DNA from: a virus
IMG/VR virus record: IMGVR_UViG_3300017759_000017
Coordinates: 1-41,761 of that record
Reading direction: 5' to 3' (one strand)
DNA: 41,761 nt
In this document: positions 1 through 16,670 of the stretch, piece by piece
Layout: each line of letters opens with the position of its first letter
Numbering within the stretch: position 1 is the first letter of the stretch
Program-made: the position numbers and the translations under genes
The notes under the pieces: model-generated
What the model was told of the DNA's origin: nothing
The model's database searches: none
Seen by the model: only the letters and a program-made list of their open reading frames with translations

Positions 1-1624
1 AGACTTTCTCCTTAAAAGGGTTTTCAATCTCAGTCATTCTACCATTATCATCTGACCATAATAAATAAGAAGCTACACCAGTTGTACCTGCATATCTATT
101 TTTTAAGACTCTAATAGTTGAAGTATTACTGGCTATCTCATCATCATCTTGTTGGTTTCTTTCCATACCAATCACTGCATCACTAAGTTGTGCGATTGAA
201 TGTGAACCTCTAAGATGTGAGAGAGATACCTGCTTACCTTCTTCATGACCTTTATCATTATCAAGTCTTCGTAAGTGACAGGCAAGTATGATACCAATCT
301 TAACTTCTGAACATAAACTTCTGAGCTTAGTCATCAGCATGTCAATAGCTTTTCTTTCATTGCCATCATCTCTGCCTGAGATAATCAAACTTAAATGGTC
401 AAGGACAATCCACTTACAATCACAACCTTTAGCCATGTATCGTATACGATTGATGACATCATCATCTTCCATAGAACCAAAGTGGTCATAGATAACTAAC
501 CTATTACCCTTCATTTCTGCAGACCATTTATGTAAATCTTCTTTAGATTGTTTCTTCCACTCCTCAGGTTTATGTAACTGTTTGTTAACATGTATACCTA
601 CGAGTCCTCTGAAAGTTCTCTTGTGTTCTTCTTCAAGAAACATCAGACCAATACTGTCCTCAGTATTCTTCCAGATATGATAAACTAATTCTCTAAGTAG
701 AGAAGACTTACCCATACCAGTACCTGATGTAAGAGTAACAAGTTCTCCCACTCTCATACCATAAAGTTTTTTATTGAGTCCTTCATATGGATATGAAATA
801 GAGTGTACTTCTTTCTCATCCCACAAAGTATCTTGTATATCATCAAAGGTAACAATACCTGCAGGAGTAAATGACTTAGCATTCCACCAGTTTCTCATGA
901 AGTGTTCTCTCTTGCCAGTCTTTAGATACTCATTAGCATCTTTCAAATCAAGGTTAACAACCTTACATTTGTTAGGTGAAAATAATTGTGCAACTTTACT
1001 AGCTGTTGCCCTACCTATCTCATCATTATCAAAACAGATAACTATATTCTCAAAGCTATTCAGGTATTCAAAGTTATGTTTACAATCTCTAACTGCTGAA
1101 GCTACTCCATTCTTAATGGAAACACTTGCCCATTTAGAACCCATCATTTCGTAGGCAGATAAGGCATCACATTCTCCTTCACATATAGTAAGATACTTAC
1201 ATGAACCTTCAGGAAATAAATGTTGTCCAAACAATTGTGCTGAACCAAAGTTACCTTGAGCAGTAAACTCTTTGGGTAAGGTTCTTATCTTATTAGCTAC
1301 ATGTTTTCTAGTGCTATCATAAAAAGGATAGATATGTTTTGTAACCATACCATTGTTAGTAATGGTAGTCACACCATATTTACTAGCAGTATCTTGAGAT
1401 ATATTTCTATCTCTCAAAGATGTAGTCTGTCCAGTAAATAAACTACTGTATGTATTATTGTAGGTGTTTGTCATTGGTATCACTTCTCCTTCTCCTTTCT
1501 CGTGGTAACCACAGTCAGGTGTGAAACAATAAGCATGTCCATCACTGTATCTACCTAAGTTATTTTTACTGCCACACTTTGGACAGTTCTCATGCTTAAC
1601 AAATTGACTTTCATTCTGTATCAT
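1..1624 (-). CDS. T7 gp4-like bifunctional DNA primase-helicase (3' end cut by window edge)
   Basis: I translated this gene by hand; 541 codons lie in the window and no stop is reached. Residues about 14-38 form a zinc ribbon (CPKC, then CFTPDC) as in the T7 gp4 primase. A TOPRIM motif (ICEGECDALSA) lies near 147-157 and the acidic FDNDEIGRA near 198-206. The helicase has a P-loop (TSGTGMGKSS) near 299-308 and a Walker B-type WIVLDH near 405-410. The protein would unwind DNA at the phage fork and lay primers. T7 gp4 is 566 residues, so little is missing. The start ATG follows AGGGG at a short distance. It is the last gene seen in the leftward unit, downstream of the DUF3310 and endolysin genes, an order that recalls T7. 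Confidence 0.95.
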   Translation of the reverse strand, partial: MIQNESQFVKHENCPKCGSKNNLGRYSDGHAYCFTPDCGYHEKGEGEVIPMTNTYNNTYSSLFTGQTTSLRDRNISQDTASKYGVTTITNNGMVTKHIYPFYDSTRKHVANKIRTLPKEFTAQGNFGSAQLFGQHLFPEGSCKYLTICEGECDALSAYEMMGSKWASVSIKNGVASAVRDCKHNFEYLNSFENIVICFDNDEIGRATASKVAQLFSPNKCKVVNLDLKDANEYLKTGKREHFMRNWWNAKSFTPAGIVTFDDIQDTLWDEKEVHSISYPYEGLNKKLYGMRVGELVTLTSGTGMGKSSLLRELVYHIWKNTEDSIGLMFLEEEHKRTFRGLVGIHVNKQLHKPEEWKKQSKEDLHKWSAEMKGNRLVIYDHFGSMEDDDVINRIRYMAKGCDCKWIVLDHLSLIISGRDDGNERKAIDMLMTKLRSLCSEVKIGIILACHLRRLDNDKGHEEGKQVSLSHLRGSHSIAQLSDAVIGMERNQQDDDEIASNTSTIRVLKNRYAGTTGVASYLLWSDDNGRMTEIENPFKEKV

Positions 1625-2936: not shown

Positions 2937-3356
2937 TTAATATACATACAGAACTTGGGGGAGTTCTGTGTAGTCACTTCGCCTATCTATGTGTATGAAT
3001 GTCTTAGCCACACCAACAGACCACCCTCGTTTCAAGGCAAGTTCAACTAAGTCCTTGCGAGATACACCATCTGAACATGCGACATCAACTGCACATGTAT
3101 CTGTGTTGTATTTTGTATTACCTATTTTATGGAATGAGTTAGCACTCGCAGGATAACCACGAGACCTCAACCAATCATTGTGTTCTTGTGAACGACATGC
3201 TGAAGTAATAGTCATAGGTTTATTATACTCCATTCTAAATGCTATAAGTGTAGACAAAAATCCTTCTTGTAAAACTACATCATGACTTGTAGGACATTCT
3301 AGTTCTAAATCATTAAAGAAACTATTGTCGTTGTAATTTTTCCTTAAGCTCATCAT
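2937..3356 (-). CDS. peptidase M15-type endolysin (peptidoglycan endopeptidase)
   Basis: This matches the phage M15 (D-Ala-D-Ala carboxypeptidase-like) fold used as an endolysin. SACRSQEHNDWL near residues 52-63, SFHKIGNTKYNTDTCAVDVACSD with the zinc-binding His and Asp near 74-92, and FIHIDRR near 120-126 with the third zinc ligand. The expected H-x(n)-D...H pattern is complete, so it should be active on peptidoglycan cross-links. There is no signal peptide, so it would need a holin, which I do not see in the window. Two in-frame ATGs (3356, 3353) follow GAAAGGAAA; the second has the better spacing. As in T7, the lysis enzyme lies just before the helicase end of the replication genes. Confidence 0.85.
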   Translation of the reverse strand: MMSLRKNYNDNSFFNDLELECPTSHDVVLQEGFLSTLIAFRMEYNKPMTITSACRSQEHNDWLRSRGYPASANSFHKIGNTKYNTDTCAVDVACSDGVSRKDLVELALKRGWSVGVAKTFIHIDRRSDYTELPQVLYVY

Positions 3357-3450
3357 TTTCCTTTCTTAATTCTTTTAATTTCTTATAAGAATTATATAAT
3401 TGTTCAGTTAACATTTGTATTTCTTTTTCATAAGTCTCTTTGGGTATCAT
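3322..3450 (-). CDS. small coiled-coil protein, 42 aa
   Basis: This tiny gene starts MIPKETYEKE and is almost wholly charged heptad-like helix (YKKLKELRKENDELKEKL). Evidence that it is translated is strong: its ATG is preceded by AAGGAGGTAAC, the best ribosome binding site I noticed in the left arm, and it is the first gene after a perfect consensus promoter. Its 3' end overlaps the endolysin start by 35 bases. Lacking a membrane segment or lipobox, it is not a normal spanin. It may be a regulator or a leader peptide coupling translation to the endolysin. Confidence 0.65.
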   Translation of the reverse strand: MIPKETYEKEIQMLTEQLYNSYKKLKELRKENDELKEKLQRQ

Positions 3451-3482
3451 CTTTTTGTTACCTCCTTGTTAAATATAAGAAA

Positions 3483-3511
3483 ATTATACAGTTTTCTATA
3501 AATCATGTCAA
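3483..3511 (-). promoter_or_regulatory. perfect-consensus sigma-70 promoter, leftward
   Basis: On the minus strand TTGACA (3506-3511) is followed by exactly 17 bases and then TATAAT (3483-3488), a 12/12 match to the bacterial vegetative consensus. Transcription should start near 3476 and read the coiled-coil gene, endolysin, DUF3310 and primase-helicase genes. It sits in the only sizeable gap (3451-3565) in this part of the operon. Confidence 0.85.
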
Positions 3512-3546
3512 ACTTATTCAACCATAGTCAAATTACTGACAGTATT

Positions 3547-3566
3547 ATGTTGTATTATTACAACAT
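3547..3566. promoter_or_regulatory. 20-bp perfect palindromic arms, hairpin or operator
   Basis: ATGTTGTA (3547-3554) and TACAACAT (3559-3566) are perfect inverted arms around a TTAT loop. The element ends on the first base of the stop codon of the upstream leftward gene and lies 35 bases upstream of the perfect promoter. No T-tract follows on the minus strand, so it is a poor intrinsic terminator. A protein operator or an mRNA 3'-end hairpin is more likely. Confidence 0.5.
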
Positions 3567-3811
3567 TACTCTTCAAAGTAATCTTTAATCTCCTCTGGTG
3601 TCAAAAGATTGACAAGTATAGGTGTGTCTTCACCTATATATGCACCTTCAATATTAAAATCTATAAACTCAAGTGCTTCTTCATAAGACATACCATCTCT
3701 TTTAACCAACTTGGTTATCATTTTCTGTTTGTCATAGATAAATACACTCAGCATACCACTTCGTGTACCTACACCTATGATACAGTCATCATAGTCATCC
3801 CATATTTTCAT
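3566..3811 (-). CDS. conserved phage hypothetical protein, 81 aa, acidic
   Basis: Starts MKIWDDYDDCIIGVGTRSG. The segment RDGMSYEEALEFIDFNIEGAYIGEDTP looks like a conserved motif seen in small phage proteins of unknown function (from memory, not searched). It is acidic, with no membrane segment. Its ATG overlaps the stop of the upstream gene by one base, so translation is coupled. It is the last gene of the small-gene array before the internal promoter region. Confidence 0.7.
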   Translation of the reverse strand: MKIWDDYDDCIIGVGTRSGMLSVFIYDKQKMITKLVKRDGMSYEEALEFIDFNIEGAYIGEDTPILVNLLTPEEIKDYFEE

Positions 3812-10200: not shown

Positions 10201-10264
10201 AGTAGTATATAACAAAAATATATATAATACATAAGTATTATTATATATATTTTTGTATACTACT
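10201..10264 (-). repeat. bulged hairpin, copy 4 of 4, within a 64-base extended palindrome
   Basis: The core (10214-10230 with 10235-10254, loop ATAA) matches the other copies, including the three-base bulge at 10240-10242. Here a further outer stem pairs 10201-10209 with 10256-10264, giving about 27 bp in all. The right outer arm overlaps the -10 box of the leftward promoter. The structure forms most of the leader of the first leftward gene. Confidence 0.75.
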
Positions 10265-10285
10265 AAAGGTTTGGGACTTTGTCAA
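10257..10285 (-). promoter_or_regulatory. sigma-70-like leftward promoter
   Basis: On the minus strand a consensus TTGACA (10280-10285) is followed by 17 bases and TAGTAT (10257-10262, 4 of 6). Transcription would start near 10250, inside the right arm of the hairpin, and read the whole leftward arm. It lies at the head of that arm, as expected for an early promoter. Confidence 0.55.
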
Positions 10286-10358
10286 CTGCATTGAATTTAT
10301 TATATAAATTAGACTTCAAAACTTCGTTACATGCATTCGCATAGACATATCACAGACC

Positions 10359-10481
10359 TGCACACATATTAGGCACACATATGCACACATATTAGGCATA
10401 TTCGCACACATACTCGCACATATATGCACTCACACACACGAAACCTGCACAAAAATTAGGCAACTGCACAAAAATTAGGCA
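10359..10481 (+). repeat. four 17-base iterons, consensus TGCACAMAWATTAGGCA
   Basis: Copies start at 10359, 10382, 10446 and 10465. The first two read TGCACACATATTAGGCA and the last two TGCACAAAAATTAGGCA. Partial units (GCACACATA, CGCACATA) fill the gap between pairs. Within each pair the copies are 23 and 19 bases apart, near two helical turns. Iterons next to divergent promoters usually bind a replication initiator or regulator. Confidence 0.65.
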
Positions 10482-10638
10482 TATCAATGGTATTGATGAG
10501 GGGGACAGGAAAAACTAGCCACCTCTTATATATATAAAAAAGGGTACCCCCAAAAAAATACCAAATAAAACCATAATGTACTACACAATTAGTGGTGTAC
10601 AATAGGTAGTAGCCAATAACAGCAGCAACTACTACATA

Positions 10639-16063: not shown

Positions 16064-16267
16064 ATGGACAATATTCTAAAAGAAATTGGACATGAAATAG
16101 ATAAAGAAATAAGTCAGATTCAAGTAATGTTAGGGGATGGAGTCTGTGAGGATTATGCCCAATATAAACAAATGGTAGGTTCAATAGTAGGTTTAAAAAA
16201 ATCTAAAGAACTTATTAAAACAATATATACTAACATGATAAATGGAGATGATGATGCAGACGATTAA
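16064..16267 (+). CDS. conserved phage hypothetical protein, 67 aa, helical
   Basis: Starts MDNILKEIGHEIDKEISQIQVMLGDGVCEDYAQYKQMVGSIVGLKKSKELI. This pattern, a short helical protein with GDGVCEDYAQYKQMVG, appears after the portal in many podovirus genomes (from memory), function unknown. No clear ribosome binding site. Ends just before the co-chaperonin gene. Confidence 0.7.
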   Translation: MDNILKEIGHEIDKEISQIQVMLGDGVCEDYAQYKQMVGSIVGLKKSKELIKTIYTNMINGDDDADD

Positions 16268-16268
16268 A

Positions 16269-16670
16269 ATGCCACAAGCAATTAAAAATGATAAATGGAC
16301 TAACAAAGATGAATTACCTGACCCTACAATATTACCAGAGTTACCAGGTTACCATGTACTGGTTCGCCCTGTTTCAATAAAAGATAAAACTAAAGGTGGT
16401 ATTATGCTACCTGAATCTGTTAAGAGTGATATTGCTTATTTAACAACAGTAGGTAGAGTATTAAAGATAGGAGATATAGCATATAAAGATAATGATAAAT
16501 TTCCTAATGGACCTTGGTGTAAAATAGGTGACCATGTATGTTATGGTAAACACACAGGTCAAAAACTTTTATATAAAGGAGTAAGACTTATATTATTATT
16601 TGATGACCAAATAATTATGAGAGTACAAAATCCTAAAGATTTAGATACAACTTATAATCTATCTAATTAA
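16269..16670 (+). CDS. groES: GroES-like co-chaperonin (Cpn10 family)
   Basis: From MPQAIKND the product is 133 residues. PGYHVLVRPVSIKDKTKGGIMLPES (about residues 28-52) corresponds to the first strands and mobile loop region of Cpn10. TVGRVLKIGDIAY and KIGDHVCYGKHTGQKLLYKGVRLILLFDDQIIMRV match the core barrel. The KTKGGI loop should contact host GroEL. Phage co-chaperonins such as T4 gp31 help fold the capsid protein, which fits its position before the capsid genes. An in-frame extension to 16242 overlaps the previous gene and is not preferred. Confidence 0.85.
   Translation: MPQAIKNDKWTNKDELPDPTILPELPGYHVLVRPVSIKDKTKGGIMLPESVKSDIAYLTTVGRVLKIGDIAYKDNDKFPNGPWCKIGDHVCYGKHTGQKLLYKGVRLILLFDDQIIMRVQNPKDLDTTYNLSN

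Follow-up and report, generated by a model that had tools for sequence, protein, structure and literature searches.

A conserved phage promoter module with a candidate phage regulator site and a palindrome that also occurs at porin genes of the probable host

Sites of the P2 Ogr/Delta activators lie near -55 of their promoters, with a half-site spacing that differs from that of the GTCA-N6-TGAC site (type 1) analyzed here. Cyanophage metabolic genes are reportedly under the control of host PhoR/PhoB, a nutrient-linked regulator (a finding attributed to Zeng and Chisholm, 2012); at the present locus lysis and replication genes take the place of metabolic genes. The part of Mascolo et al. 2022 (PMC9437464) on which we draw describes phages of alphaproteobacteria with large intergenic regions that are packed with CtrA sites and proposes “lytic deferment”, CtrA being the host regulator of those phages’ receptors, pili and flagella. 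Fur boxes are described, in the portion of the source used here, by GATAAT hexamers (PMC2864753).

Compared with lytic deferment as set out in that part of the CtrA paper, our locus may be similar in that host-like regulator sites, recognized by sequence resemblance, occur in a phage control region and are clustered in some relatives. It differs in that the sites resemble outer-membrane protein operators and come in several exchangeable kinds, and in that one TGTTGTA-N4-TACAACA palindrome (type 2) lies directly at the lysis/replication promoter, where it is single. The best reading is that the lysis/replication promoter is probably under host-regulator control, which would resemble lytic deferment; this is a likeness on paper, and membership is not claimed. 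With P2 Ogr/Delta the locus shares a dyad of similar size centered in the -55 to -58 zone. Unlike in P2, no Ogr-like protein was found and the promoters have a perfect -35. A likeness to the Fur box is seen in TGATATTGATAATCATTATCA-like repeats in the control regions of two relatives (L243, L248), with none at the studied promoter. If the reading is true, lytic phages of very common marine bacteria would read host surface-protein regulators before lysis and replication proteins, lytic deferment would extend beyond CtrA, and phage sequence would offer a route to the host porin regulator.

The promoter of the leftward lysis/replication operon

The window, i.e. the whole stretch of 41,761 nt that was analyzed, is an IMG/VR virus record; a comparison of its first 25,000 bases with 50,697 phage records gave no near match. 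Its large terminase subunit best matches those of the pelagiphages HTVC027P and HTVC023P, with 39–40% identity. A GroES-like (Cpn10) gene lies in the late operon (16242-16670) and is likewise found in these two phages. The following features surround the promoter:

3811-3566, minus strand: upstream small gene, its stop codon at the start of the palindrome
3600..3613, minus strand: possible second type-1 site GTCAATCTTTTGAC, within the upstream gene, where it codes for VNLLT
3547..3566, minus strand: type-2 palindrome ATGTTGTA-ATAA-TACAACAT, centre at about -80, matching the palindrome at host porin genes
3527..3540, minus strand: type-1 operator-like site GTCAGTAATTTGAC (GTCA-N6-TGAC), exactly 15 nt to the -35 hexamer, centre at about -58
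3506..3511, minus strand: -35 hexamer TTGACA, exact, also in 29 of 29 modules scored
3483..3488, minus strand: -10 hexamer TATAAT, exact, likewise in all 29 scored modules (spacers of 17 or 18 nt)
3461..3467, minus strand: ribosome binding site AAGGAGG, read from the sequence
3322..3450, minus strand: 42-aa coiled-coil ORF, first gene of the operon, with a homologue upstream of the endolysin in relatives
2937..3356, minus strand: M15-type endolysin (phrog_894, E 2.5e-12; Pfam Peptidase_M15_3, E 2e-4, just under the cut-off)
2..1624, minus strand: primase-helicase (Pfam Toprim and DnaB_C), extending past the window end

As the original prediction had stated, TTGACA and TATAAT are separated by 17 nt and carry no mismatch (3511-3483, minus strand). 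Such a perfect promoter had also been called rare. It is the sole exact TTGACA-17-TATAAT in the scanned 41,761 nt, but 17 of 100 shuffled windows contain at least one exact consensus promoter as well (0.20 expected per window for spacers of 15–19), so its rarity by itself carries little weight. The promoters of the window and of its relatives agree with the sigma-70 consensus (TTGACA, 17 ± 1 nt, TATAAT), and a transcription start is predicted near 3476. Sequence and domain matches also bore out the leftward order of AAGGAGG, small coiled-coil gene, endolysin and replication genes: the coiled-coil ORF (3450-3322) overlaps the endolysin (3356-2937), and a DUF3310 gene and the primase-helicase follow. 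A bZIP-like reading of the 42-aa coiled-coil gene was dropped, no basic region being visible.

The palindrome lies 35 nt from the -35 box, a distance that the coordinates confirm. Described as perfect in the original prediction, it is in fact an inverted repeat of 8+4+8 bp (3566-3547) whose arms ATGTTGTA and TACAACAT are interrupted by ATAA. The exact TGTTGTA-N4-TACAACA has one copy in the window, and with up to three mismatches 12 matches were found against 6.6 expected; it is conservation across relatives that lifts the palindrome above chance. Between palindrome and -35 box sits GTCAGTAATTTGAC, which had been overlooked.

A search of relatives for the palindrome, as had been proposed, revealed a whole module. 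We collected 32 upstream regions by an endolysin protein search (at least 57% identity), without selection for the motifs; these are sequences that differ, not independent lineages. The module, composed of TGTTGTA-N4-TACAACA, 6–7 nt, GTCAGTAATTTGAC, 15 nt, TTGACA, 17–18 nt and TATAAT, was found in 29 of them. Its 26 core bases (14+6+6) are free of mismatches in all 29 modules, GTCAGTAATTTGAC thus being identical in 29/29, and the 15-nt gap is invariant while the other gaps vary. The palindrome is exact in 22 modules and has one mismatch in three and two mismatches in four. Among the three exceptions, the spacer of L008 contains Ns, L012 is cut off 46 nt upstream and L026 (three loci) lacks the module. 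Where relatives carry an extra gene inserted before the coiled-coil gene, the module remains beside the promoter. As the whole module is conserved even then, a separately controlled promoter with a dimer site is suggested. The idea that the operon is under its own control by a dimeric protein fits the conservation in 29 of 32 regions, but it had missed the second, more conserved operator, and the palindrome appears not to be private to the phage, since porin genes of the probable host carry a matching site. The arms of GTCAATCTTTTGAC are retained in 27 of 30 distinct sequences, with a codon conservation of 0.99 versus 0.88 in the rest of the upstream gene, which is suggestive only of a second type-1 site.

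The palindrome at outer-membrane protein genes of the probable host

An IscU-like protein provides a host link independent of the motif. It comes from G008, a close relative (the corresponding stretch is absent from the window), and its four best matches among a sample of 385 alphaproteobacterial genomes, with 83–85% identity, are exactly the four sampled members of the family that bears the type-2 palindrome. Genomes of this family are AT-rich alphaproteobacterial genomes of 0.9–2.0 Mb, and size, G+C content and gene content suggest that it is SAR11-like. We regard it as the probable host of these phages. The IscU-like gene is located at L531:7775-8475 (G008) and an IscA/ErpA-type gene at L535:10336-11051 (G016); these iron-sulphur protein names were assigned by eye.

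The exact palindrome TGTTGTA-N4-TACAACA occurs in 8 of the 385 genomes and its control in 5, four of the 8 coming from this one family. Within the family, 13 of 32 genomes carry the exact palindrome, at 15 sites in all, and none of the 32 has a control site; with one mismatch allowed, 57 sites compare with 18 for the control. Each of the 15 exact sites lies at an outer-membrane protein gene and typically precedes its start codon by about 100 bp, although orthologous promoters make up most of the sites and they do not represent 15 independent cases. They belong to a porin-like gene (11 sites, usually behind tonB), Porin_O_P (2) and Gcw_chp (2); the porin-like protein, matched by Pfam KdgM below the cut-off only, is named from its length, signal-like start and tonB/exbD context. 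Further loci from the one-mismatch search lie at an outer-membrane protein gene in 13 of 17 cases, as against 1 of 20 comparison loci with type-1 matches in the same genomes.

Placement may also be similar. From the end of the palindrome to the -10 the distance is 59 nt in 20 of the 29 phage modules, 60 nt in 8 and 58 nt in 1. For the 28 host loci at outer-membrane genes the -10 was guessed from sequence; at the tonB-linked porin promoters the commonest -10-like hexamer is 58 nt from the palindrome end (10 of 16 loci; second most frequent position, 5), and the Porin_O_P and Gcw_chp promoters showed no clear spacing. The palindrome is 97 nt from the start codon in the window and 99–110 nt in the tonB-linked host porins. 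No clear -35 is seen in the host porin promoters. The same palindrome with a free 4-bp centre marks the host porin class and the phage module (exact in the window and in 22/29 modules). We predict that TGTTGTA-N4-TACAACA is a porin-regulon operator of the host family that has not been described before. Among the papers found, none brought SAR11, porin, regulator and palindrome together; the main text of a paper on structured RNAs in Pelagibacter (PMC2704228) mentions neither porin nor TonB, and the terms promoter, palindrom and intergenic have zero occurrences in PMC9599517.

Read from sequence, the locus has a fixed architecture in which each site type is recurrent, and its palindrome precedes outer-membrane protein genes in the host family. 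Beyond a strong promoter of the phage's own, it is a conserved module in which a putative phage-type regulator site stands beside a putative host-type one. We think it fairly probable that this is a conserved phage sigma-70 promoter of the lysis/replication operon carrying a site for a host porin regulator and a site for a dimer that is probably phage-encoded. Host RNA polymerase would recognize the consensus promoter, and a putative host dimer controlling porins would bind the palindrome at about -80 as it would at porin promoters. Given the apparently nearly equal distance from palindrome to -10 in phage and host, the operon may then track the envelope or nutrient state of the host. A putative phage-encoded dimer at GTCA-N6-TGAC, at about -58, would couple the promoter to the early/late control region. 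Activation by the host regulator seems somewhat more likely than repression: the lack of a clear -35 suggests an activator at the host porin promoters. At the phage promoter the regulator could instead be a brake or a decoy.

Several points speak against involvement of a host regulator. A perfect promoter requires no activator, and the palindrome is mismatched in 7 of the 29 modules. Both motifs are also absent from the cultured relatives HTVC023P and HTVC027P in our motif search. In the part of a pelagiphage infection study used here, HTVC027P, itself without the motifs, raised host phoB, zur and irr transcripts (PMC12753301), which shows a response of the host's nutrient regulators to phages of this kind.

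Exchangeable repeats in the phage control regions

Of 63 related phage loci, 54 extend far enough upstream of the small terminase gene for this analysis (nine were left out), and 49 of these have GTCA-N6-TGAC in their divergent early/late control region, in 1–8 copies that often form arrays with sites 19–21 bp apart. Its stricter form GTCANNNNTTTGAC was found in 41 of 43 records searched, the reversed control in none of the 43. On other viral contigs we counted 47 loci with three or more type-1 sites, and at 20 of them a large terminase gene lies at most 4.5 kb away. The window and its near-identical sisters have no type-1 site in the control region, yet one is kept at the lysis/replication promoter, which is a point against our main reading. 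The window has a different repeat there:

10359..10482, plus strand: four TGCACANANATTAGGCA repeats (type 3; 10359, 10382, 10446, 10465) in the divergent control region, where sister phages have type-1 arrays

Where comparable, L229 and the window differ essentially in the control-region repeats only, with flanks that are 95–99% identical. The repeat array is cleanly swapped (window 10310-10528 versus L229 1998-2310). Beside the array lies a long AT-rich inverted repeat (10203-10265; 27-nt arms, 85% complementary), also present in L212, which is a possible origin or terminator.

The probable host family shows no enrichment of TGTCA-N6-TGACA (36 sites versus 35 for the control), and the type-1 binder is therefore probably phage-encoded. 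Pfam scans of the left-operon proteins of the window and G016 (for G016 the commonest 25 of 45 families) gave no helix-turn-helix family. TerS was rejected as binder of the control-region arrays: it is 100% identical in the window, L229 and L232 while the arrays differ, whereas a TerS packaging site would change only together with TerS. Comparing window/G001 with G008 for a gene that co-varies with the array, we found differing small genes, none recognizable as a regulator, and the recurrent neighbours of type-1 arrays in other phages were just terminase and early genes. Spellings of the type-1 pattern retrieved one paper only, which is unrelated. Among the listed genome matches to type 1, most come from G+C-rich actinobacteria with paired TGTCAG-N4-CTGACA 27–28 bp apart (L408-L527), apparently an unrelated operator pair.

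Other host-like sites occur in the control regions of relatives. L241, L243 and L244 each have two type-2 palindromes, and L253 and L254 three exact or near copies each. L243 and L248 carry three to four Fur-box-like repeats (TGATATTGATAATCATTATCA type) about 350–550 nt upstream of the small terminase gene, which match 18 of 19 positions of the 19-bp Fur box consensus. Within the host family, 18 of 32 genomes together contain 26 sites of the Fur-box-like core TGATAATNATTATCA, compared with 5 for the control; a TonB-dependent receptor gene was found in 14 of 18 loci, with the Plug domain confirmed in three. Allowing one mismatch, we found the type-3 repeat TGCACANANATTAGGCA at 10 host sites and its control at 1; 5 of the 10 closely precede Gcw_chp genes, and we treat this apparent resemblance as a lead, not a result. 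Tentatively, and with somewhat less than even confidence, we suggest that the control regions of this group of phages are built from interchangeable copies of the operators of host outer-membrane proteins (a porin, a TonB-dependent receptor, a Gcw_chp-type protein), that lysis and replication would be timed by the regulation of the likely receptor, and that close relatives swap the receptor operator. A porin or TonB-dependent receptor is our guess for the phage receptor.

Alternative explanations

It is unlikely that phage-encoded regulators bind all sites and that the likeness to porin operators reflects convergence or host capture of a phage-type operator. Phages commonly control their middle operons themselves, and type 1 is phage-specific. 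Host porin genes, however, are enriched in type 2, for which the control gave no site, and the left-operon scans of the window and G016 (for G016 again the commonest 25 of 45 families) contain no helix-turn-helix protein. Slightly less probable is a decoy function, in which phage copies of host operators would titrate the host regulator as the phage DNA is replicated and shift porin or receptor levels, with any effect at the promoter secondary. The multiple sites in relatives (two type-2 palindromes in L241, L243 and L244, three to four Fur-box-like repeats in L243 and L248) and the four type-3 repeats of the window would suit it, whereas the studied promoter has a single, co-conserved palindrome at a set distance to the -10, which local control fits better. 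Replication iterons at GTCA-N6-TGAC, with the promoter autoregulated by a phage initiator protein, seem improbable: the arrays have a 19–21 bp period next to AT-rich inverted repeats and the operon encodes replication proteins, but near-identical phages exchange the array for other repeats between flanks of 95–99% identity, and no initiator was recognized.

An RNA stem-loop that ends the upstream mRNA, be it a terminator, processing or stability element, is very improbable. The palindrome begins where the upstream gene has its stop codon, several host sites lie 4–23 nt after the tonB stop, and the predicted RNA hairpin has -10.8 kcal/mol (z -2.5; a host site is similar with z -2.4). Against this, the arms are of one sequence without compensatory changes, the palindrome lies between divergent genes at Gcw_chp loci, and in phages it also occurs well inside non-coding control regions. 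Nor does it resemble an intrinsic terminator with G+C-rich stem and T-run: it is not among the terminator-like sites and is followed by no U-run. That chance or mere common descent without function explains the module is hardly credible; an exact promoter does arise in 17 of 100 shuffles, but across the 29 modules the spacers diverge while the 26 core bases are constant. The promoter under combined host and phage control remains our preferred reading.

Four more distant relatives (L276, L278, L283, L288) have an exact TTGACA-17-TATAAT 66–69 nt upstream of the small terminase gene, which faces leftward where the early operon begins. About 160 bp farther, these phages have a second leftward promoter, the -35 of which is overlapped by a lone type-1 site.
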